The translations under genes and the position numbers were made by a program. A stretch of DNA of 49,123 nucleotides, from positions 1 to 49,123 of the forward strand of contig JAIUMM010000009.1 in assembly GCA_022565615.1 (NCBI GenBank), given 5' to 3'. Every line of letters begins with the position of its first letter. Position 1 is the first letter of the stretch. This document shows, piece after piece, positions 18,627-47,929 of this stretch. Under the pieces are notes generated by a model that searched no databases, was not told the DNA's origin, and saw only the letters and a program-made list of their open reading frames with translations. This DNA comes from Nanobdellota archaeon. Lineage in GTDB: Archaea; Nanobdellota; Nanobdellia; Woesearchaeales; UBA583.

Positions 18627-20159
18627 ATGAATTCAAATAGTAGAAATTTAAACGCACAAGAACTTGCATCTTTTTGTAGAAAAAAAGGTTTTTTATACCA
18701 ATCAAGTGAAATTTATGGTGGAGTTTCAGGAGTGTATGATTATGGCCATATTGGAACATTATTAAAGAAGAATTTCCAAAATAGTTGGATTAAATATTTT
18801 AAATCATTACATGAAAATTTTTATGAAATTCAAACAGGTCAAATTATGCATGAGAGGGTCTTTAAAGCAAGTGGTCATTTGGAGAATTTTTATGACCCTA
18901 TTGTAGAAATTGAAGGGCAAGATGAAACATTTAGGGCTGACCATTTAATTGAAGAAAAATTAAGTCAAAGAGCAGAAGATTTAACAATTGATGAAATGAA
19001 AGAGTTAATTGTTTCTAAAAAATTACTAGGCGATATTGATTATTCAAAAGTTAAAATTACTAATTTAAATTTAATGTTTGATGTTCACATGGGTCCTACT
19101 AAAGGGACAAAAGCATATTTGAGACCTGAAACTGCTCAGAGTCCATTTGTAAATTTTAAAGCACAATTTGAATTACAACGAAAAAAATTACCAATGGGAT
19201 TAATGCTTATTGGAAAAGTATTTAGAAATGAAATTTCTCCAAGAAATTTAAATTTAAGGACTAGAGAATTTGAACAAGCTGAATTACAGATTTTTTTTAA
19301 TCCTAATACTCTTAATGAAAAACATAATAAATTTGATGAAATTAAAGATATTAAACTTCCTGTAAAATTAGTGAACTCAACAACAGATAATGAAGTTGAA
19401 TATAAATCAGTTGAAGAATTACTCACATACGGAGTACATGAAATGTATGCATATTATTTAGCAAGAGTTTTTTTGTTTTATAGAGATGTACTAAAATTAA
19501 ATATAAATTTAAGATTTTTAGAATTAAATGAAAAAGAGAGAGCTTTTTACAATAAAATGCATTTTGATATTGAAATGAAAATGCACTCAATTAATAAGTG
19601 GGTTGAAATTGGAGGAGTTCACTATAGAACAAACCATGATTTATCTTCACATGAAAAAGAATCAAATATTTCAATGACTATTCAAGATGAAGCAAGACAA
19701 GAGAAAGTATTACCTCACGTTTTAGAATTGAGTTTTGGTGTTGATAGAAATTTATATGCAATTATTGATCAAAGCACATTTATAAATGAAGAGAATAATC
19801 AAACAACTATGCATATGACATCTAAATTATCTCCAATTAGTGTTGGAATTTTTCCATTAATGAATAAAGAACCTCTTACAAAAGTGGCATACGAATTAAA
19901 AGAATTGTTTGTTGAAGAAGATATTGAAACTGTTGTTGAGACAAGTGGTTCAGTTGGTAAAAGATATGCTAGAAATGATGAAATTGGAACGGCTTATTGT
20001 ATAACTATTGATTATGAAACTATTGAAGAAGGAGATAATAAAGATACAATTACTATTCGAAATAGAGATACACAAGAGCAGAAGAGAGTTCATAAAGATG
20101 AAGTAGTAGGAGTTGTAAAACAATTGCTAAGAGGTAAAATTTCTTTTGAAGAATTATAA
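18627..20159 (+). CDS. glyS: Glycyl-tRNA synthetase, class II (start corrected from TTG 18621)
   Basis: QSSEIYGGVSGVYDYGHIGTLLKKN, RPETAQSPFVNFK, motif 3 SFGVDRNLYA. Confidence 0.95.
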   Translation: MNSNSRNLNAQELASFCRKKGFLYQSSEIYGGVSGVYDYGHIGTLLKKNFQNSWIKYFKSLHENFYEIQTGQIMHERVFKASGHLENFYDPIVEIEGQDETFRADHLIEEKLSQRAEDLTIDEMKELIVSKKLLGDIDYSKVKITNLNLMFDVHMGPTKGTKAYLRPETAQSPFVNFKAQFELQRKKLPMGLMLIGKVFRNEISPRNLNLRTREFEQAELQIFFNPNTLNEKHNKFDEIKDIKLPVKLVNSTTDNEVEYKSVEELLTYGVHEMYAYYLARVFLFYRDVLKLNINLRFLELNEKERAFYNKMHFDIEMKMHSINKWVEIGGVHYRTNHDLSSHEKESNISMTIQDEARQEKVLPHVLELSFGVDRNLYAIIDQSTFINEENNQTTMHMTSKLSPISVGIFPLMNKEPLTKVAYELKELFVEEDIETVVETSGSVGKRYARNDEIGTAYCITIDYETIEEGDNKDTITIRNRDTQEQKRVHKDEVVGVVKQLLRGKISFEEL

Positions 20160-20214
20160 CTTTTCTATTCAAGTAAGTGATAATATTTATAAACATAGTT
20201 TTTTACATATTAGT

Positions 20215-21201
20215 ATGGTTCAACATTTGAAATTTATTGATCTCTTTGCAGGGATTGGAGGAATTAGAATTGGTTTTGAAAAACATTTTGGAAAATGTGT
20301 TTTTAGTTCTGAGTGGGATAAATTTGCTCAAATTACTTATCAAGAAAATTTTGGTCATAAACCTGCTGGTGATATAACAAAAATTCATGAAACTTTAATT
20401 CCTAAATTTGATATTTTACTTGCAGGATTCCCTTGCCAACCTTTTTCAAATGCGGGTTTAAAAAAAGGATTTGAAGATTCAAGAGGAACTTTATTTTTTG
20501 ATATTGCAAGAATTGTTAAATATCATAAACCCAAAGTAGTATTTTTAGAAAATGTTAAAGGATTTAAAAACCATAATAAAGGAGATACTTTTAATACAGT
20601 AAAATCAATTTTAGAGGAAATGGGTTATAAAATTTTTCATCAAGTTTTAAATGCAAAAGATTTTGGAGTTCCACAAAATAGAGAAAGAATTTATATCGTT
20701 GCTTTTTTAGATGATGTTGATTTTTCATTTCCAAAACCTCAAAATTTTAATGTTAAAGTAGGAGACATTTTAGAAGAAGAAGTTCAGGAAAAGTATACAA
20801 TTTCAGATAAACTTTGGGAGGGTCATCAAAGAAGAAAAATTCAACATAAAAGCAAAGGAAATGGATTTGGTTATTCTTTATTTGATAAGAATTCAAATTA
20901 TACTAGTACAATTTCTGCAAGATATTATAAAGATGGTTCAGAAATTTTAATAAGTCAAGTTGGAAAGAATCCTCGAAAAGTAACTCCAAGAGAAGCTGCA
21001 AGACTTCAAGGATTCCCTGAAAATTTTAAAATTTCAGTTAGTGATAATCAAGCATATAAACAATTTGGGAATAGTGTGTGTGTGTTAGTTATTGAAGCTA
21101 TTGCAAATAGTATAAAAGAAAGTTTAGAACAATTTGAATCTCAAAAAATGATTGAATCTATTGAAATATCTTCTAAAAAAGAAACTTCTACTGAAATTTA
21201 A
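20215..21201 (+). CDS. DNA (cytosine-5) methyltransferase (start corrected from 20146)
   Basis: FIDLFAGIGGIRIGFE, GFPCQPFSNAG, FLENVKGF, QNRERIYIVAF, TPREAARLQGFP, QFGNSV. Confidence 0.95.
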   Translation: MVQHLKFIDLFAGIGGIRIGFEKHFGKCVFSSEWDKFAQITYQENFGHKPAGDITKIHETLIPKFDILLAGFPCQPFSNAGLKKGFEDSRGTLFFDIARIVKYHKPKVVFLENVKGFKNHNKGDTFNTVKSILEEMGYKIFHQVLNAKDFGVPQNRERIYIVAFLDDVDFSFPKPQNFNVKVGDILEEEVQEKYTISDKLWEGHQRRKIQHKSKGNGFGYSLFDKNSNYTSTISARYYKDGSEILISQVGKNPRKVTPREAARLQGFPENFKISVSDNQAYKQFGNSVCVLVIEAIANSIKESLEQFESQKMIESIEISSKKETSTEI

Positions 21202-21202
21202 A

Positions 21203-22222
21203 ATGGAAATTAAAAAAATTCATATTGAAAAATCTAAATTTGAATTAAATTTAAAGTTTTATTATTTTTTAAAAAATTTAGTTAAAATTAAACTGAGTTC
21301 AAATCAAGTAGAATTAATATTGAGAATTTATTATATAAATTCAACAAAGAATTATGAGCAAATATTACAAAAGATAATTGAAGATTTTATTTTAAATTTA
21401 AATAATGATACAAAGAAAGATAAATTACTTCAATTCTTTAATGAAATTGAAAATAAATGGGACTTAAAATTAATGATATTTAGTTTAAAATTATATTTAA
21501 TAAAAGATTTATTACTACAAGAAGCAAAAATTAAAAACCTTTTAGATATCACTAAGTTAGAAAATTTAAATCCTTTATCATTAGAATATGACAAAATTAC
21601 AACATATAGTCCTTATTCTACAAGAGTTAATGGAGCATTGTTATCTTTAATATTTTTTGATAAATTAGAGAGAGAAGAATTGAATTTTTTGAGTAATGAT
21701 TCAGTTTCTTTTTTAAAAATATTGTCTAAATTAGGTAATGAACTTACTAAAAAAGGGATTGAACCAAATCAAATTTTTATGTTAATGTTTAGTGAAAGCG
21801 TTAATCAGTCAATTATATCTGATAGTGGAAGCAATTATGAAGAGAGAATTTTATCAGTATTGCTTGATTTAGGAATTTCTGAGAGTTCAATTACTAAACA
21901 ACATGATAAAAATGACTCTTCAACAGAGTTTGACTTCTTTTTTGAATTAGAAAATAGAACTTATGGAATTGGTGCCAAGAGGACATTAAGAGAGAGATAT
22001 AAACAATTTATTAAGACTGCAATTATGACTAAAATTGATATTATGATTGAAATTACATTAGGTTTGGATTTAAATGAAGAGAAAGCAAAAACTATAAGAA
22101 AACATAATGTGTATATTTTTGTCTCAGATGAGATTTATAATTCAAAATATTTTTTAAAAGAATTAGAAGGAATTCATCCAGTTTCTCAATTAACTCTTGA
22201 GACTTTAAAAAGTTTAAAATAA
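21203..22222 (+). CDS. Type II restriction endonuclease, PD-(D/E)XK type (start corrected from 21152)
   Basis: Begins 1 nt after the methyltransferase stop; STEFDFFFELENRTYGIGAKRTLRERYKQ resembles the K-x-[TS]-x-R-[ED]-R-x-x-Q core of EcoRII/NgoMIV-like enzymes. Confidence 0.75.
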   Translation: MEIKKIHIEKSKFELNLKFYYFLKNLVKIKLSSNQVELILRIYYINSTKNYEQILQKIIEDFILNLNNDTKKDKLLQFFNEIENKWDLKLMIFSLKLYLIKDLLLQEAKIKNLLDITKLENLNPLSLEYDKITTYSPYSTRVNGALLSLIFFDKLEREELNFLSNDSVSFLKILSKLGNELTKKGIEPNQIFMLMFSESVNQSIISDSGSNYEERILSVLLDLGISESSITKQHDKNDSSTEFDFFFELENRTYGIGAKRTLRERYKQFIKTAIMTKIDIMIEITLGLDLNEEKAKTIRKHNVYIFVSDEIYNSKYFLKELEGIHPVSQLTLETLKSLK

Positions 22223-22228
22223 ATAAAA

Positions 22229-22465
22229 ATGCCAATTGTTATTAGATGTCCTAGTTGTCAAGAGTTTCAAATGTCTACTGCTCAAAAAATTGTAAAGTGT
22301 ATTAAATGTAATAAGTCAACTCAAAGACAAAATTTAAAAATATTTTTTCAAAGTGATTCTCCACAGGCATGCTCTGAAGTTGTAAAAAGATTAAAAGAAG
22401 AACATTTTAGAGTTCATGGAAACTATGGAGAGGATGATTTTTTCACATATGAATTAAATAAATAA
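22229..22465 (+). CDS. Small zinc-ribbon protein (DUF1922-like)
   Basis: CPSCQEF...CIKCNK CxxC pair. Confidence 0.6.
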   Translation: MPIVIRCPSCQEFQMSTAQKIVKCIKCNKSTQRQNLKIFFQSDSPQACSEVVKRLKEEHFRVHGNYGEDDFFTYELNK

Positions 22466-22513
22466 CTTAATTTAAACAATAAGTTTATATATCTTGATAC
22501 CATTTACTATCAT

Positions 22514-22750
22514 ATGGGATATCAAGTCAATGTGAGACTTTCAGAAGAGATGAAACAAAGAGCTGAAGAGTACGCAAAAGAGTACGGTTTTTCAAATATT
22601 CAAGAAGTGATAAAAAATAGTTTGAGAAAAGAATTATACGAAAATTACTCACTTGATGATATTAAAAAAATTGAAGAATTTGAATCATTTTGTGATGAAT
22701 ATAATTTATATGCATCAGAGGAGGAATTATTTGAAAGTTTAAAAAAATGA
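22514..22750 (+). CDS. RHH-type antitoxin-like protein
   Basis: MGYQVNVRLSEEMKQRAEEYAKEYGFSNIQEVIKNSLRKEL. Confidence 0.8.
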   Translation: MGYQVNVRLSEEMKQRAEEYAKEYGFSNIQEVIKNSLRKELYENYSLDDIKKIEEFESFCDEYNLYASEEELFESLKK

Positions 22751-23049
22751 AGTTTACAATTAAGCCTACTTTATTTATAAAAAAACAATTACAAGAACTT
22801 CATGAAAAAACAAGAAAATCTTTAGTTTCTAAAATTGAATTTTTAAAAGAAAATCCTTTTAATAATAAGTCTTTAATTTGTTATAAAAGTTTATTTAGAA
22901 TAAGATTTATAGATATAAATAGTGAGAAGAGATTAATTTATTCTCTAAGAAGAGATGAAGTTAGATTATTATTCATTTTAGATAGGAAGAAAAATTATAA
23001 AGATTTAGATACTTATCTAAATAAAATCAGAGAAGATTTAAATAAATAA
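22747..23049 (+). CDS. RelE/ParE-family toxin-like protein
   Basis: Overlaps the antitoxin stop (ATGA); RIRFIDINSEKRLIYSLRRDEVRLLFILDRKKNYKDL. Confidence 0.8.
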   Translation: MKFTIKPTLFIKKQLQELHEKTRKSLVSKIEFLKENPFNNKSLICYKSLFRIRFIDINSEKRLIYSLRRDEVRLLFILDRKKNYKDLDTYLNKIREDLNK

Positions 23050-31050: not shown

Positions 31051-32004
31051 ATGGTAGGAGAAAATGTTAGAAAGTGCCCTGAGTGTGGGAGCACTAATTT
31101 ATATAATAATAAAGACAAAGGAGAGATTGTTTGTAGGTCTTGTGGTCTTGTAATTGATGGTAGAAATATTTCACTAGGAAAAGAGTGGAGAGATTTTGAA
31201 GAGAGTGAAGGTTCTGAGATGAGAAGAACTGGAGCTCCTACAACATATACTAAATTTGATATGGGGCTTGGAACATCAATTGGTTCAGAGAGTGATTCAT
31301 TTTCATTAGATAAAAAACAACGATATAAACTTCAAAGATTGAAAAGATGGCAAAAAAGACTCTCAACAGTTATGGAGAAAAATCTAAAAATTGCCCTTGG
31401 AGAACTTAGAAGATTAGCTTCATATTTAAATTTGCCAACTGCTATTGAAGAAGAGTCTGGAAAAATTTATACAGAAGCGGTTCAAAAAAATTTAGTAAGA
31501 GGACGTTCAATTGAGAGTGTAGTTGCAGGTGTTGTTTATGCTGCTTGTAGAAGACAAAATATTCCAAGAACATTAGATGAAATTAGTGAAGCGAGTGGAA
31601 TTGATAAAAAAGAAATTGGAAGATCGTATAGGTACATTACAAGAGAGTTAAAAATTAAAATTTTACCTTCAAATCCTGTTGATTATATTTCAAGATTTGC
31701 AAGTGTATTAAATTATGGACCTGAGACTCAATCAAGGGGAGTGGATATTTTATCAAAAGCTTTAACATTAGATTTAACTTCAGGAAGAGGTCCTATTGGA
31801 ATTGCAGCAGCAGCATTATATATTGCGGGATTATTAGAGGGAGAGAGAAGAACTCAAAGAGATATTTCAGAAGTGAGTGGTGTTACTGAGGTTACAATTA
31901 GAAATAGATATAAAGAGATAATTACTAAACTAGGATTAGAAGATGAAATTAAAAAAATTAAATCTAAAAAAGAGGATGATTCAGATGATAACTCAGATTT
32001 TTAA
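31051..32004 (+). CDS. tfb: Transcription initiation factor IIB
   Basis: Zn ribbon CPECGSTNLYNNKDKGEIVCRSCGLVI plus two cyclin-like repeats. Confidence 0.96.
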   Translation: MVGENVRKCPECGSTNLYNNKDKGEIVCRSCGLVIDGRNISLGKEWRDFEESEGSEMRRTGAPTTYTKFDMGLGTSIGSESDSFSLDKKQRYKLQRLKRWQKRLSTVMEKNLKIALGELRRLASYLNLPTAIEEESGKIYTEAVQKNLVRGRSIESVVAGVVYAACRRQNIPRTLDEISEASGIDKKEIGRSYRYITRELKIKILPSNPVDYISRFASVLNYGPETQSRGVDILSKALTLDLTSGRGPIGIAAAALYIAGLLEGERRTQRDISEVSGVTEVTIRNRYKEIITKLGLEDEIKKIKSKKEDDSDDNSDF

Positions 32005-33493
32005 AAAAAGTATACTATTTTTTGTAGTATTTTTATTGTTGACATTTCAAATGTTTAGTTTTGCAGTTCCACAAGAATATACACAAAATACATTTTCTTT
32101 TGTAACTCAGGAGAATAGGAATACTATTGTATCAACAAATAGGGATGAAGTGGAGTTTAGTTTTACTCTTAAAAATACTTTAAATGAGATGCAGGAGTTT
32201 AATGTTTCAATAAATCCTTCAACTTCTTGGGAAATTGAACCTTCTAATTTTATAGTTAGATTAAATCCACTTGAACAAAGAGAAATTAAATTTAAAGTAT
32301 TAATTCCTGATAATTTAGGATATACTAGAATTGTAGATAGTCAAGGTTTGAGTAAGTTTGTATTAGATGATGATTATTTTGGAGTCTTTAATTTCCCTAT
32401 TTTTGTTGACCCTGTTGGAGATGAAGATACATTAGAAATAGTGTATAGATTGGAAGTGTATGCTCCTATGAATTTACCTGTTGATTTTACAATTGAACCT
32501 TCAACTACTAGAATGTCTCCTGAATTTGAAAATACACTTAGAATTTTAGCACAAAATTTAGATGAAGGAGGTTCTTCTACTACAGCTAAAGTTTCAAAAT
32601 CAATTGGAGGAGTTGAGTTACCTTCTCAAGATATTACATTTTCATATATTAGAGATGTGGTTGATGTAAGTTTTGAAATTCCTTCAACAATTGAACCAGG
32701 GAATTATCAAAGAATTGTGACAGTAAGTTTAGAGAGTGATGGGGGGAGAAGTCAACAATGGCAACTTAGAGATTCAGTTCAAATTTTAGAATTTGAACAA
32801 TTATTGATTAGGGAAGAGGAAAGCACAAATTTATGGTCTGTGAATCATAGAGTTTTCATAGAAAATGTGGGGAATACTAATTCTGGATATGAGGTTGCTA
32901 AAAATTTTGCTTGGTATGAAAGAATATTTTTGTCTTCAAATGTAGATTATTCAATTATTAATTCAGAACATGTGTTTAGTATTGAAATTTTACCTGGGGA
33001 GGAGAAAAATATTGATATTAGTATTAGGTATGGGATTATTTTATTACTGATTTTAATTGTGTTAATAATTGTGTTAATAAGACTTTATTTAGTATATAAA
33101 AATCCTTTAGAAATTGATGTTAAATTTGAGAGTATTAAAAAGGTAAAACATGAAGGTGTTAAAAGTTTTAAAGTTAAAATTGGATTTGAAAATGTTAGAA
33201 AAGAAGAGATTGATACTCTAAGAGTTGTATTTAGAATGCCCTCTTATTTACATGTTAAAGATGAATCATTTTCAATTACTCCTCCGACTAAAGTTCTTAA
33301 AGGTTCAAATAAATATAAATTGATGTGGGAATTTAAGAGATTTGAAAAAGGTGATGCTAGAATTTTAGGATTTGAGCTTGTAAATTCAAAAGGTATTTTA
33401 GGAGATATTCATTTTGAAGATTTAGAATTTGAAATAATTTCAAAAAATAATACTGCTAAATATTATACTCCAATTGAAACAATTAGAGGATAA
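31985..33493 (+). CDS. Secreted/membrane protein with Ig-like/NEW3-type domains (start corrected from 31943)
   Basis: N-terminal signal sequence, beta-rich repeats, late TM segment (IILLLILIVLIIVLIRLYLVY). Confidence 0.75.
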   Translation: MITQIFKKSILFFVVFLLLTFQMFSFAVPQEYTQNTFSFVTQENRNTIVSTNRDEVEFSFTLKNTLNEMQEFNVSINPSTSWEIEPSNFIVRLNPLEQREIKFKVLIPDNLGYTRIVDSQGLSKFVLDDDYFGVFNFPIFVDPVGDEDTLEIVYRLEVYAPMNLPVDFTIEPSTTRMSPEFENTLRILAQNLDEGGSSTTAKVSKSIGGVELPSQDITFSYIRDVVDVSFEIPSTIEPGNYQRIVTVSLESDGGRSQQWQLRDSVQILEFEQLLIREEESTNLWSVNHRVFIENVGNTNSGYEVAKNFAWYERIFLSSNVDYSIINSEHVFSIEILPGEEKNIDISIRYGIILLLILIVLIIVLIRLYLVYKNPLEIDVKFESIKKVKHEGVKSFKVKIGFENVRKEEIDTLRVVFRMPSYLHVKDESFSITPPTKVLKGSNKYKLMWEFKRFEKGDARILGFELVNSKGILGDIHFEDLEFEIISKNNTAKYYTPIETIRG

Positions 33494-33506: not shown

Positions 33507-35237
33507 ATGAAATCATTATTAAAATTATTTTTTAATTATTTTTTAAAACAAAAATTAGCTCAGGGTTTGCCTGTTGCAAGAATTGTAGTATTTTTTTTAG
33601 GACTTATAGTACTTATAGTTTTAATTGCAGGACCTGTTGGTCAATTAATTCCTTTTTTTACTTCTTCACAAATGGAAGGACTTGAAGCAACTTGTACAAA
33701 TTATCGAGATTTTGATCAAACTTTGTATTGCGAAACAAGAGATGATCAAGAACTTCTTCCAGATTCCAGATTTAATTGTCTAAGAGATTCAGAGGATTTT
33801 GAAAGGTATACAAGAGTTGAAGCATATGTTCAGTCAAAGGGTTGTGAAGAGATTGGAGGGGAAGAATGTACATGTATTACTAATGCGTATTTGCATCAAA
33901 GAGAATTAGCAAGAGCTGAAGTTACTGGAGAGAATATTGGAAGTGGTTCAACCATAGGAGGTATCATCGGAGGGGCTGAGATACGGCCTGAAGAGATTCC
34001 ATCTGTTGCTAGTTTACTTGAAGATATTTCAGATTTTATATTTGGAAGGGATCAGACTCCTGAAGATGGAGCGGAACATTCAGAATATGGTATTGAGCAT
34101 TTAGGTTTTAATTCTGAGTCCATGCAATTATTTAGAGAATTTTCTCAAGAGCATGATGTAGAACTTAGAAGATTAGTTGCATTTGCAAGAGCAATTGCAA
34201 GTATTGAGACAAATAATAGGGAATTTGATTCTAATGGAAATCCGGTTGCAAGATTTGAGTGCCATGTTTTTAATAGAAATTCTAATCAAAATGTTCCATG
34301 TACAACTAGAGATGGTGAATCTTTTAGTAGGGTAGCAAGTGAGACAAATTATGAAGCATTTGTAAGGGCGAGTCAAATTAATGAAAATCAAGCATTTAGT
34401 TCAACAAGTTTTGGAATGTTTCAAGTATTAGGTTCAAATTATGCTACTTTTGGTTTAAGTTCGCCTCAAGAATTACAACAAAGAACTTTAACTCAAGAAG
34501 GTCAAGTTGATTTATTTTTGCGATTTATTTTAAGTAGGGAGAATTCAATTTTAAGAGAATTAAGAGATTCTCAAACTTTAAATTATAGAATTATAGCACA
34601 AAGATATAACGGGGCTCAGTATGAGAGAAATCAATATCATACAAAACTTCAAGTTGCATATGAGAGATACTATCAAGAGTATTCGAGTCAAATGGGGAGT
34701 CCTGAATTATTGGTGGGGTTAAATATTAATGCTCCTGAGTTATATACTCAAATTAGATCAGCGGAATTATCAAATTCTCAATTTGCTTCAAGATTAGTGT
34801 ATGAGATAGGAAGTGGAACTATAAGGGATAAGGGATTGGCTCCTATTTTAGAGAGTATTTTATATGTGACGGCTGAAGAACTTAATGTTAGAGTTCATAT
34901 TTATAGTGCTGGACAATGTCCTGCTAATCATCCTACTTGTGGCAATGAGAGAACTGGTTCAAGAAGACATGATTTTGGAAATGGAGCAGATATTTACATT
35001 ACAAGAGATGGTCAAAGAATTTGTAACGGGAATCCTGATTTTGATAGATTTGTAAGAGTTGCTTTTAGAAATGGTATTCAAGCAGGTGGTTCAAGTCCAG
35101 GGTATATGGGTAATTGTAATATGCATTTAGATATAGTAGGAACAAGACTAGGGGGTGGAATTCATTGGCGTTCAACAAATAATTTTGTATCTGCACTAAG
35201 TCAAGGGATTAGGGATAGACAAACAACTACCTCTTAG
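33507..35237 (+). CDS. Putative secreted muralytic enzyme: N-acetylmuramidase domain plus M15-like peptidase domain
   Basis: ARAIASIETNNREFDSNGNPVARFECHVFNR...SSTSFGMFQVLGSNYATFGL...RYNGAQYERNQYHTKLQVAYERYY, then GSRRHDFGNGADIYI...CNMHLDIVG. Confidence 0.8.
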   Translation: MKSLLKLFFNYFLKQKLAQGLPVARIVVFFLGLIVLIVLIAGPVGQLIPFFTSSQMEGLEATCTNYRDFDQTLYCETRDDQELLPDSRFNCLRDSEDFERYTRVEAYVQSKGCEEIGGEECTCITNAYLHQRELARAEVTGENIGSGSTIGGIIGGAEIRPEEIPSVASLLEDISDFIFGRDQTPEDGAEHSEYGIEHLGFNSESMQLFREFSQEHDVELRRLVAFARAIASIETNNREFDSNGNPVARFECHVFNRNSNQNVPCTTRDGESFSRVASETNYEAFVRASQINENQAFSSTSFGMFQVLGSNYATFGLSSPQELQQRTLTQEGQVDLFLRFILSRENSILRELRDSQTLNYRIIAQRYNGAQYERNQYHTKLQVAYERYYQEYSSQMGSPELLVGLNINAPELYTQIRSAELSNSQFASRLVYEIGSGTIRDKGLAPILESILYVTAEELNVRVHIYSAGQCPANHPTCGNERTGSRRHDFGNGADIYITRDGQRICNGNPDFDRFVRVAFRNGIQAGGSSPGYMGNCNMHLDIVGTRLGGGIHWRSTNNFVSALSQGIRDRQTTTS

Positions 35238-35259: not shown

Positions 35260-36516
35260 TTACAGAATTTGAATTTCAATGCAACATCTATACATTCTTG
35301 GAGCAGATTGTCCTACTTTTCTAATATTTAAAATTTTTACATTAATATTTTTTTGTTTAGCAATTTTATATATTTTTTTAATAGTATCATTTGAAAAATT
35401 ATCTAATTCTTCTTCTTTTAAAAAACAATAGAGATAAATGATTCCTCCTTTAATGCATAATTGAAATGCTTTTGCTAAAAATTCAATAGCAGTTTTTGGA
35501 AGAGGCATGTATATTGAATTATATTTATCAATTTCATTAAGTGGTTTTGAAGTAGTAAGTAGTTGGAGGAGATAGTTTTTTTCAAGTAATGTTTTAATGG
35601 TATATATTTTTGTTTTTAATTTTATTGAATAATCAATAAAGTTAGGATTACATATGAGAAGAAGTAAAAGTTTTAATTTTTCTTCTTCATTAATAGTATT
35701 TAGATTAACTTCAATAGTTTTAATATTGAGTGAATTAAATTCTTTAGAATATTCAAAGAGTTCTTTATAGTTTAGTTCTTCTACTATTTTAGAATTATAT
35801 TCAATATTGTATTCTTCAATTTCTTTTAATATTGAATTATATGAGTTCACATCACAATTTTTAAAATGATATATTAGTTGGTTTAAAGATTGAAGAATTT
35901 TTTTTTCATATAATGGAATTGAATACTTTTTACAAATTTCTTGTATTTGTTTAAATATTTGTGATTTTTTTAAATTACTTTTATTATGTTCAATATTTTT
36001 TAGAGCATATTCATGTCCTTGTGGATTTAACTCAATTGACGTTAATCTTGAAATATTGGGTTGGTATTTAGAAATTACAAATGAATAAGGTCCAGCACCT
36101 GAGAAGAGGACTAACTCGTTAGAATATTTTTTAACATTTTTTGCAATATACTCTCGCTCAGTTGAGAGTTTGGTTGAAAAATAAACTGAATTAATATCTA
36201 ATTCAATAAGTATTCCATTTTCTCTATATTGAGTTATTGTATTTTCAATTCCTGCGATATGCTTAAAATTTTGAGTTCTAAATTCTCCTTCATGAAAACT
36301 TGCTTTTGTTACAACAGTTTGAAGTTGAGGATTTAGATTAAGTAAAATTTCTCCAATTTGAGTTTCATATTCTTTTAATTCATCACAAATTTCAATAATA
36401 CCAATTGTTCCAACTATTTCAAATGATCTAGGAATTAGTAAATGTAGGGAGGGGGGAATAATTTTAATAAGTTTCTTCTTAAGAGAATTTGAATATGATT
36501 TTGAATTTAGATTCAT
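35260..36516 (-). CDS. trm5: tRNA (guanine37-N1)-methyltransferase Trm5-like, with a large internal insertion
   Basis: FSTKLSTEREYIAKNV, LVLFSGAGPYSFVI, SIELNPQGHEYALKNIEHN, YMPLPKTAIEFL. Confidence 0.8.
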   Translation of the reverse strand: MNLNSKSYSNSLKKKLIKIIPPSLHLLIPRSFEIVGTIGIIEICDELKEYETQIGEILLNLNPQLQTVVTKASFHEGEFRTQNFKHIAGIENTITQYRENGILIELDINSVYFSTKLSTEREYIAKNVKKYSNELVLFSGAGPYSFVISKYQPNISRLTSIELNPQGHEYALKNIEHNKSNLKKSQIFKQIQEICKKYSIPLYEKKILQSLNQLIYHFKNCDVNSYNSILKEIEEYNIEYNSKIVEELNYKELFEYSKEFNSLNIKTIEVNLNTINEEEKLKLLLLLICNPNFIDYSIKLKTKIYTIKTLLEKNYLLQLLTTSKPLNEIDKYNSIYMPLPKTAIEFLAKAFQLCIKGGIIYLYCFLKEEELDNFSNDTIKKIYKIAKQKNINVKILNIRKVGQSAPRMYRCCIEIQIL

Positions 36517-44959: not shown

Positions 44960-47929
44960 ATGAAGAATATTTATAAAAATTTAATTATTAAAATTACTAG
45001 ATATATGAATACAAATTTATTGTTTAATTTACTTAATTTTAGAAATTCTAAGAGAGGATTTTCAGAAGCTGTTGTAGTATTAGTTTTATTTTCATCTTTA
45101 AGCGTTATAGGAATTGTGATGTTTACAAATTATCAATCTTCAGTAGCTCTTACACAAGAACAATTATCTCAAAGTTATACTACATTACTTGAAAATAGAA
45201 ATTTAAACTTTGAGATTTTAGAAACTCAATATGAAGACATTTATCTCAACATTAGGATTAGAAATTCAGGTTCAACCCAGTTGCTAACTTCTGAGTTTAG
45301 TTTTTTTATAAATAGTAATTTTATTACTTTTTCAAATATAGAATTTTTAGATATTCACAATTCTCCTCTTCAAGTTCAGTTAATTCAACCATTTCAAGAA
45401 TTTAGAGTTCAAATTATGATTGAAGATTTATTAGATTTAAATGTATTATCAATTATTCATGATTCAGGTGTCGAAAAACAAAGAGAATTTGAAATTTCAA
45501 GAGAAACTATATTTATCTCAATATGGGATACAACTCTTACAAGTTCAGGTTCAACAAATGATACTACAATTCAATTGCCATTAACGCAAACAGGTGTTTA
45601 TGATTTTAGAATTGATTGGGGAGATGGAACAATTGAAGAGATAACTCAGTGGGATGAAGCAATTCATACGTATGAAATTTCAGGAGTATATACTATTGAA
45701 ATTGATGGAGTAATTGAAGGATTTAGATTTAATGATCAAGGAGATAGATTAAAGTTACTTATAATTGAACAGTGGGGGAATTTACGAGTTGGAGATGAGG
45801 GTAATTATTTTCACGGAGCAGAGAATTTTAATTCAAATGCAATAGATTCTTTAAATGTTTCAGGAATGACTAATTTTAGAGATTTTTTTAGAAATGCAAG
45901 AGAATATGATGAGGATATTTCATCTTGGGATGTAAGTTTAGTAGAAGTGATGTGGGATATGTTTAGAGATGCAAGAAATTTTAATAATGGGGGTTTAAGT
46001 GGAATTAATAATTGGGATGTTAGTAATGTTGAGAATATGAGGGGTTTGTTTTATGATGCTCAAAGTTTTAATCAACCTCTTAATAATTGGGATGTTAGCA
46101 ATGTTGAGAATATGAGAGATATGTTTAGAAGAACATTTAGTTTTAATCAACCTCTTGATAATTGGAATGTGAGTAATGTTCGAGATATGGATAATATGTT
46201 TTTTCTAGCTAATGTCTTTAATCAAAATTTAAATATGTGGAATACAAGTTCAGTTGAGAGGATGAATAGTATGTTTAGAAGTGCTAGTAGTTTTTTTCAA
46301 CCAATTGGAGATTGGGATACAAGTTTAGTTATTACAATGGATAGAATGTTTAGAGATGCAAGTTCATTTAATCAAGATTTAAGTTGTTGGAATGTGACTC
46401 TTTTAAATGAACCTCTTGAATTTAGTGTAAACTCTCCTCTAAGTTTTCAAAATACCCCAATTTGGGAAACTGATGGTGGAGGGGGAACTTGTAATGTAAT
46501 TATTCCAACTGCTCATTTTATATCACAGTGGAATACAAGTTTAGGAGATGGAGGTTTGAGTATTACTCTTCCTTTAGAAGAGAGTGGATTTTATGATTTT
46601 ACTGTATTTTGGGGAGATGGAAATCAAGATATAATTACAAGTTGGAATCAAGTAGAAGTTACTCATACATATTCTAGTCATGATATCTATACTATTGAAC
46701 TTGTAGGTGTAATTAATGGATTTAATTTTGCAAACGGGATTAGTTTAGACGTAGAAAAAATTATTAATATTGAACAATGGGGAAATATTTCACTAGGAAA
46801 TAATGGAGGATATTTTAGTGGAGCAGTTAATTTAGAGAGTACTGCTACAGATAGTCCTGATTTAGGCTCAACTACTATTTTTAGTGAGATGTTTTTAAAT
46901 GCTCAAAATTTTAATGGAGATGTTAGTGGATGGGATATGAGCACTGCTGTTAATATGCAAGATATGTTTAGAGGTGCTCATTCTTTTAATCAGCCTCTTA
47001 ATTTATGGGATGTGAGTGGTGTGTTAAATATGAGAGGTTTATTTTTTGAAGCTCTAAGTTTTAATCAAGATTTAGAGTTTTGGAATACAAGTTCTGTTAC
47101 AAATATGATTTTTATGTTTAGAGATGCTCAGAGTTTCAATGGTAATATTTCTACTTGGGATGTAAGTGAGATTAATAATTTTAATTCAATGTTTAGAGGA
47201 GCGAGTAGTTTTAATCAACCTCTTAATAGTTGGAATGTTAGCAATGTAATTAGAATGAGTAATATGTTTTATGATGCTCAAGAATTTAATCAAAATTTAG
47301 ATTTATGGGATACAAGTTCAGTTCAATTCATGGACAGTATGTTTAGAGGTGCTCAAAGTTTTAATAATAATATATCTACTTGGGATGTAAATAATGTTCA
47401 AACTATGGCAAATATGTTTATTTTTGCTCAAGATTTTAATTCAGATATTTCTTCTTGGAATACAAGTAGTCTTAGTAATATGAATGGAATATTTAGAGGA
47501 ACAAGTTTTAATCAAGATATTAGTAATTGGGACATTAGTGGTGTGAGTACATTTACAGATGTTTTTAGAGATTCTCCTTTTAATTTAGATATATCATCTT
47601 GGAATACTTCAGGTGTTGTTTCTATGATTAGAACTTTTCAAGATGCTCAAGATTTTAATCAATCTCTTAATACTTGGGATGTGAGTAATGTTGAGAATAT
47701 GCAAGACATGTTTAGAAATGCACAGAGTTTTAATCAAGATATTGGAAATTGGGATACTTCTCAAGTAACTAATATGATTAGAATGTTTAGAGATACTTTA
47801 TCATTTAATCAAGACTTGACTTGTTGGAATGTGACATTAATTCCATCTCTTCCTTCTGGATTTACTCAAAATTCTGCTCTTGATATTTCAAATAGACCTA
47901 CTTGGGGAACTGATGGAAGTAGTTGTTAA
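44960..47929 (+). CDS. BspA-like (DUF285) repeat surface protein with two PKD-like WGDG segments and pilin-like N-terminus
   Basis: SKRGFSEAVVVLVLFSSLSVIG; about 18 units of the type WDVSNVENMRDMFRRTFSFNQPLDN. Confidence 0.9.
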   Translation: MKNIYKNLIIKITRYMNTNLLFNLLNFRNSKRGFSEAVVVLVLFSSLSVIGIVMFTNYQSSVALTQEQLSQSYTTLLENRNLNFEILETQYEDIYLNIRIRNSGSTQLLTSEFSFFINSNFITFSNIEFLDIHNSPLQVQLIQPFQEFRVQIMIEDLLDLNVLSIIHDSGVEKQREFEISRETIFISIWDTTLTSSGSTNDTTIQLPLTQTGVYDFRIDWGDGTIEEITQWDEAIHTYEISGVYTIEIDGVIEGFRFNDQGDRLKLLIIEQWGNLRVGDEGNYFHGAENFNSNAIDSLNVSGMTNFRDFFRNAREYDEDISSWDVSLVEVMWDMFRDARNFNNGGLSGINNWDVSNVENMRGLFYDAQSFNQPLNNWDVSNVENMRDMFRRTFSFNQPLDNWNVSNVRDMDNMFFLANVFNQNLNMWNTSSVERMNSMFRSASSFFQPIGDWDTSLVITMDRMFRDASSFNQDLSCWNVTLLNEPLEFSVNSPLSFQNTPIWETDGGGGTCNVIIPTAHFISQWNTSLGDGGLSITLPLEESGFYDFTVFWGDGNQDIITSWNQVEVTHTYSSHDIYTIELVGVINGFNFANGISLDVEKIINIEQWGNISLGNNGGYFSGAVNLESTATDSPDLGSTTIFSEMFLNAQNFNGDVSGWDMSTAVNMQDMFRGAHSFNQPLNLWDVSGVLNMRGLFFEALSFNQDLEFWNTSSVTNMIFMFRDAQSFNGNISTWDVSEINNFNSMFRGASSFNQPLNSWNVSNVIRMSNMFYDAQEFNQNLDLWDTSSVQFMDSMFRGAQSFNNNISTWDVNNVQTMANMFIFAQDFNSDISSWNTSSLSNMNGIFRGTSFNQDISNWDISGVSTFTDVFRDSPFNLDISSWNTSGVVSMIRTFQDAQDFNQSLNTWDVSNVENMQDMFRNAQSFNQDIGNWDTSQVTNMIRMFRDTLSFNQDLTCWNVTLIPSLPSGFTQNSALDISNRPTWGTDGSSC

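Follow-up and report, generated by a model that had tools for sequence, protein, structure and literature searches.

Genes and conserved gene order at the locus

The analysed window, a stretch of 49,123 bp, corresponds to contig 9 in an assembly of 1.2 Mb. Computation identified in it a gene encoding a 576-aa protein, both domains of this protein, its catalytic and zinc residues, a topology signal and a conserved locus (Table 1). The ORF begins with ATG, 13 nt after the end of the gene for a beta-rich membrane protein, whose own ORF overlaps the end of tfb. All motifs quoted in the original prediction were found: E234 within ASIETNN, FECH at 250–253, STSFGMFQ at 299, YNGAQY at 367, RRHDFGNGAD at 486–495 and NMHLDI at 538–543. 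The single N-terminal transmembrane segment claimed there was also recovered by hydropathy, as one hydrophobic helix. The residues before this helix include K2, K6, K14, K16 and R25, and none of them is acidic. Thus, according to the positive-inside rule, the ectodomain with the catalytic part should be extracellular. All 12 cysteines lie C-terminal to the helix, on the predicted outer side. No known cell-wall-binding domain was recognised in the 576-aa protein by Pfam or other family profile searches.

Table 1 Features of the locus, with positions in the window
Feature	Position	Strand	Evidence
tfb (transcription factor B), first gene of the conserved cluster	31051..32004	+	Pfam TFIIB E=6e-42, synteny
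Beta-rich membrane protein, 516 aa, conserved upstream partner	31943..33493	+	Same place in 6/6 genus genomes
Membrane-anchored 576-aa protein, predicted PF11860 muramidase + C-terminal LAS/M15-like domain	33507..35237	+	ORF, Pfam, models, fold searches
N-terminal transmembrane helix, about aa 26–47, predicted N-inside/C-outside	33582..33647	+	Hydropathy, charge (positive-inside rule)
PF11860 N-acetylmuramidase domain, aa 225–388	34179..34670	+	Pfam, PHROG, PDB, fold searches
Codon of Glu234, aligned with AP3gp15 catalytic Glu101	34206..34208	+	phmmer alignment, conservation
C-terminal LAS/M15-like domain, about aa 430–568, unnamed phage-type family	34794..35210	+	Profile, conservation, fold searches
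Codon of His488, predicted zinc ligand	34968..34970	+	Invariant in 27 sequences
Codon of Asp495, predicted zinc ligand	34989..34991	+	Invariant in 27 sequences
Codon of His540, predicted zinc ligand	35124..35126	+	Invariant in 27 sequences
TYW2/Trm5-type methyltransferase, convergent downstream flank, outside the function	35260..36516	-	Pfam, synteny

The same gene order, namely tfb, the membrane protein, an anchored protein of the lysozyme superfamily and the convergent Trm5/TYW2-type gene, was present in 6/6 genomes of the genus, with one extra gene inserted in the otherwise common order at the locus of genome G002. A survey of the sister genomes had been proposed as a check, and it returned a lysozyme-superfamily protein at the locus in all six and PF11860 in five. 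In the remaining genome (G005, L026 5119-5904), an N-terminal helix like the others' precedes an SLT-type domain (PF01464, scoring 23 bits with the cut-off at 21.3). This single sequence may reflect either a replacement or an extreme divergence within the lysozyme superfamily. SLT-type proteins were encoded by five of the six genomes, one of them apparently with a LysM-like repeat. The C-terminal M15-like fusion was limited to the window's species, so that the description of the protein as bimodular holds there but not in the sister genomes, where the proteins carry the glycosidase part alone. Near the locus in G002 (L021 3850-6504), a HerA/VirB4-like ATPase gene encodes 884 aa rather than about 440, and the extra part is intein-like (it ends ...FFANNCLVHNC).

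The coupling to tfb and to a beta-domain membrane protein, also part of the original prediction, was found in every genome of the genus, but was not recovered in the neighbourhoods listed for the rest of the order. Members of the membrane protein family were detected in 187 of the 241 genomes of the order, mostly as a single match, and the matches outside the genus were weak. Among the neighbourhoods listed there, the gene is flanked by others, none of which was recognised as lysozyme-type. Thus, as far as seen, the lysozyme pairing is a feature of this genus, and an order-wide operon with the membrane protein is unsupported.

In archaeal type IV pilin-like proteins, a class III signal has a [KR][GA] cleavage site ahead of the hydrophobic helix. 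The sister proteins of G001, G003, G004 and G005 have NKKG in a pilin-like N-terminus; NKKG is absent in G002, and the window protein has AQG. A prepilin peptidase (peptidase A24) is encoded in the window's genome. Together, these N-termini and the peptidase would allow display on a pilus, but with AQG in the window protein at this site such display is hypothetical.

The predicted muramidase and LAS/M15-like domains

The two catalytic-type domains were modelled separately rather than as one full-length protein. The first passed the curated PF11860 cut-off with E=8.3e-34 (117.8 bits against 22.3), over profile positions 3–174 of 175, and was also matched by two PHROG endolysin families (E 8e-34 and 7e-29) and by the PDB endolysins Pae87, AP3gp15 and LysT84 (phmmer, E=4.5e-12). 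At the sequence level, the match is far beyond chance. Glu234 falls on residue 101 of 5nm7 in the phmmer alignment, and its conservation was at least 90% among 34 relatives. In AP3gp15, Glu101 is the sole catalytic residue identified, and the E101A substitution cuts activity by 99.4% (PMC5674055). Both the predicted N-acetylmuramidase with its PF11860-like layout and the lysozyme-like fold that a structure prediction was expected to reveal were thereby supported: the AlphaFold2 model (pLDDT 89.8) retrieved the Pae87 and AP3 endolysins in Foldseek with E 2e-9 to 4e-8 and TMq 0.70–0.73, and no other significant match was returned beyond the solved endolysins. Such a domain would hydrolyse the MurNAc-GlcNAc bond. 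The window protein and the PF11860/DUF3380 endolysins (AP3gp15, Pae87, LysT84) have the domain family, the fold and the catalytic Glu in common (PMC5674055). However, the latter are phage lysis enzymes, while the window protein, at about 30% identity, is archaeal, chromosomal and membrane-anchored, with an extra LAS/M15-like domain.

Assignment of the C-terminal domain was more remote. Pfam, NCBIfam and PHROG searches gave no family for it, and none of nine members of its family matched any Pfam model, M15 included, at E up to 1. Among 27 aligned sequences, the motif was R-H-x-x-G-x-x-x-D ... Y-M ... H, with H488, D495 and H540 invariant; one Arg and one Ser were likewise invariant among the phage relatives. 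The HxxGxxxD...HLD arrangement is non-random as judged from shuffled sequences, 6 of 20,000 of which held a comparable pattern, a rough control only as the pattern was written post hoc. With a nine-sequence profile of the domain, the best four PDB matches were M15C-type peptidases (E 0.004–0.05). The model had a pLDDT of 79, with core blocks at 86–96, and its top seven PDB matches in Foldseek were all of the hedgehog/LAS-M15 type (Sonic hedgehog, LysB4, MepA, VanX, ChiX). The best single match was Sonic hedgehog, a signalling protein of LAS fold, and the T5 endolysin came ninth. For the hedgehog/LAS matches the probability was up to 1.00, E about 0.005–0.05 and TM 0.35–0.45; as these TM-scores are modest, we refer to a LAS/M15-like domain and not to a member of a named M15 family.

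Of the motifs typical of D-Ala-D-Ala metallopeptidases, neither H-x-H nor E-x-x-H is present around the last zinc histidine (the window has NMHLD, and relatives have S/R/G in the corresponding positions). MepK, the E. coli homologue of YcbK, is an active endopeptidase. YcbK, a member of the superfamily, likewise has neither H-x-H nor E-x-x-H (PMC3927764). The domain shares the H-x6-D...H zinc pattern, and by its remote matches probably the fold, with the M15C L-Ala-D-Glu endopeptidases (Ply500, LysB4, T5 endolysin, ChiX), but is too distant from them for any Pfam M15 model. Of the M15-like zinc peptidase originally proposed, the H-x6-D...H pattern, the M15C profile matches and the LAS-type fold matches were found, but the usual H-x-H/E-x-x-H motif and a named M15 family were not. 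Profile and fold searches place the predicted domain, as a remote match outside the named families, in the M15/LAS zinc-peptidase superfamily.

Relatives of the C-terminal domain were found on alphaproteobacterial plasmids, in Rhizobium and Agrobacterium phages that carry them beside portal, capsid or structural genes, and in 142 confirmed viral contigs; some of these proteins also bear a tape-measure, tail-lysozyme or peptidoglycan-binding domain. A viral scan with the C-terminal domain alone as query gave no match. On these phage contigs and plasmids (L043-L122, L030-L036), an R-H-x-x-G-x-x-x-D ... GxGAGxxYM ... H domain with a LAS/M15-like zinc pattern is widespread, but neither Pfam nor PHROG has a dedicated model for it; the C-terminal domain reveals a large unannotated phage domain family with a zinc-peptidase signature. 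A second copy in the same genome, on another contig (G000:C17), showed 37% identity over 139 aa. It lies in an 836-aa protein (L027 122-2632) that starts in the manner of a signal peptide and, besides this second M15-like domain, matches DUF3597. No other genome of the order carried the domain (288 sampled).

Distribution and origin

In the order sample, PF11860 was detected in 7 of 288 genomes, outside the window's genus only in genus g140. It occurred in 2 of the 371 genomes of the phylum sample, which added no further archaeal PF11860 genome. Three relatives were recovered from a named genome collection: Woesearchaeota archaeon CSBr16_154, archaeon UBA583 and Nanoarchaeales archaeon DT_72. 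The window's genus formed one clade (98/92) and g140 another (100/99) in a tree of 47 domains. GC3 was 0.135–0.140 in every operon segment, equal to that of the neighbours, and a viral scan with the archaeal muramidase alignment gave no match. Judged from the six-genome synteny, the single genus clade and the even GC3, the gene is native and old in the genus. Contamination or a prophage is rejected on the strength of the synteny, the GC3 and the tree. A recent transfer of the muramidase is unsupported, since the genus forms one clade at 34–43% identity to the window, and so is a common origin with the PF11860 carriers of g140, given the separate, well-supported clades. The enzyme would have been acquired from phages or bacteria and afterwards inherited vertically.

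In g140, which belongs to another family of the same order, a long cluster of genes on one strand (L025 1-19160, L242, L243; G175:C7:445000-495000; L024, G236) encodes pilin-like or secreted proteins. Among its several multi-domain wall-cutting candidates are proteins with PF11860 + Amidase_2 (1479 aa), GDSL + Amidase_2 + Peptidase_M15_4 (989 aa) and GDSL + NlpC/P60 + GH75-like domains (783 aa), in addition to a 1068-aa protein that may contain an SLT-like region. From its predicted domains, it looks like a whole archaeal murein-attack cluster.

Predicted function and rival explanations

To our knowledge, archaea have no murein. The one Mur-ligase-type gene of the window's genome looks like FolC (the assembly is 92% complete and a missed gene is possible), which speaks against murein synthesis by the archaeon itself; with this as the sole such gene, the known routes to murein and to pseudomurein should both be closed to it. 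Since the archaeon would make no murein, the substrate should be a bacterial wall, and bacterial murein is the simplest predicted substrate. We consider it probable, on the evidence of sequence and models, that the 576-aa protein is a surface-anchored two-activity hydrolase of a Woesearchaeales-type DPANN archaeon against bacterial murein. The N-terminal helix would fix the enzyme to the archaeal membrane so that both catalytic domains face outwards, the PF11860 domain would cut the MurNAc-GlcNAc glycan backbone via Glu234 and the LAS/M15-like zinc domain (His488, Asp495, His540) would probably cut stem peptides of the same sacculus. In this way, the wall of a contacting bacterium would be opened for predation, competition or nutrient release. 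We infer the hydrolysis, the peptide bond cut, the bacterial target and the purpose; attack on living cells, scavenging of dead ones and attachment as an epibiont would look alike by sequence.

The relatives of the enzyme come mostly from phages of Gram-negative bacteria. The antibacterial reading is weakened by the outer membrane of such bacteria, which would block an enzyme acting from outside. It is further weakened by the missing wall-binding domain, by the M15-like domain, which has modest TM-scores and not its usual motif, and by the sister species without a peptidase domain. On the other hand, it is supported by the precedent of archaeal murein hydrolases that kill bacteria (PMC12352652).

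Several other explanations were weighed against an antibacterial hydrolase. It is possible, if doubtful, that the C-terminal domain has no peptidase activity and instead, as a zinc-stabilised module that binds murein, tethers the muramidase to its substrate. The missing H-x-H or E-x-x-H motif, the top fold match to a signalling protein and the want of any other wall-binding domain in the protein would suit such a module, but the invariant H, D, H, Arg and Ser of the phage relatives and the M15C endopeptidases at the top of the profile search argue for a peptidase, as do YcbK, in the superfamily despite having neither motif, and its active homologue MepK. We regard it as rather unlikely that the anchored enzyme merely digests sacculi of dead bacteria for sugars and amino acids. 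Together, a glycosidase and a peptidase would yield small fragments, the blocking outer membrane belongs to live Gram-negative cells, and the biosynthesis of DPANN archaea is limited; against this, an enzyme fixed in the membrane is better placed for contact than for diffusion.

Remodelling of the archaeon's own surface or of an archaeal partner, by cutting a GlcNAc-containing glycan or glycoprotein, e.g. for the passage of a pilus or secretion machine, seems unlikely. A locus kept in six of six genomes fits a housekeeping role, the genome has a prepilin peptidase, and bacterial lysozyme-fold proteins serve secretion and conjugation machines. However, the added domain resembles murein stem-peptide endopeptidases, murein and pseudomurein ligases are absent from the genome except the FolC-like one, and known PF11860 enzymes cut murein (PMC5674055). 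Highly improbable, in our view, is a domesticated or resident virus gene, i.e. an endolysin or virion-associated lysin of an integrated virus with no cellular role. Relatives of both domains are indeed found mainly in phages, but tfb and the tRNA-modification gene flank the gene in six genomes, its GC3 equals that of its neighbours, no phage structural gene is among the annotated ORFs of the window, and a murein lysin would be useless for exit from an archaeal cell.

The general idea of archaeal murein attack is already known from two studies. For 'vampiristic' Woesearchaeota that encode GH23 lytic transglycosylases, Vigneron et al. 2022 proposed predation on bacteria (PMC9723730). The lineage and the proposed attack are the same as for the window enzyme, but the latter belongs to another family and has a peptidase-like fusion and a conserved locus, neither of which is described there. 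The main text of Strock et al. 2025 reports that about 5% of archaeal genomes, Nanoarchaeota prominently among them, encode peptidoglycan hydrolases, and that two from a haloarchaeon kill bacteria (PMC12352652). These are archaeal murein cutters exposed to the outside, as is predicted for the window protein, but are defined in that text by a catalytic plus a known wall-binding domain, while the window protein has two catalytic-type domains and no binding domain was found in it. PF11860 and M15 are absent from the same main text (PMC12352652). As far as the literature searched extends, the occurrence of the PF11860 family among archaea looks new, and so do the fusion, the fixed operon and the phage domain without a family name.

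DPANN archaea are often assumed to depend on archaeal hosts. The genus keeps a predicted murein-specific enzyme at one locus, where one genome has a different domain of the lysozyme superfamily; this suggests that its lasting prey or partners are bacteria. The 576-aa enzyme offers a testable protein for the DPANN–bacteria relation. More tentatively, murein cutting may be a fixed, vertically inherited trait of the genus, in which the tfb operon would supply a membrane-anchored (in relatives perhaps pilin-anchored) cutter, with a catalytic domain that is exchanged (PF11860, SLT) or extended (M15-like) in the course of time. If true, such a trait would be expected of a genus living on bacterial rather than archaeal partners.

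Elsewhere in the window, a 989-aa surface-type protein (44960-47929) has many 'WDVSNVENMRDMF..SFNQPL' repeats, BspA-like in appearance, and a pilin-like N-terminus. By the appearance of their sequences, 20146-23049 holds a DNA cytosine methyltransferase-like gene with a possible restriction-enzyme-like ORF after it, and 22514-23049 a RelBE-like pair.
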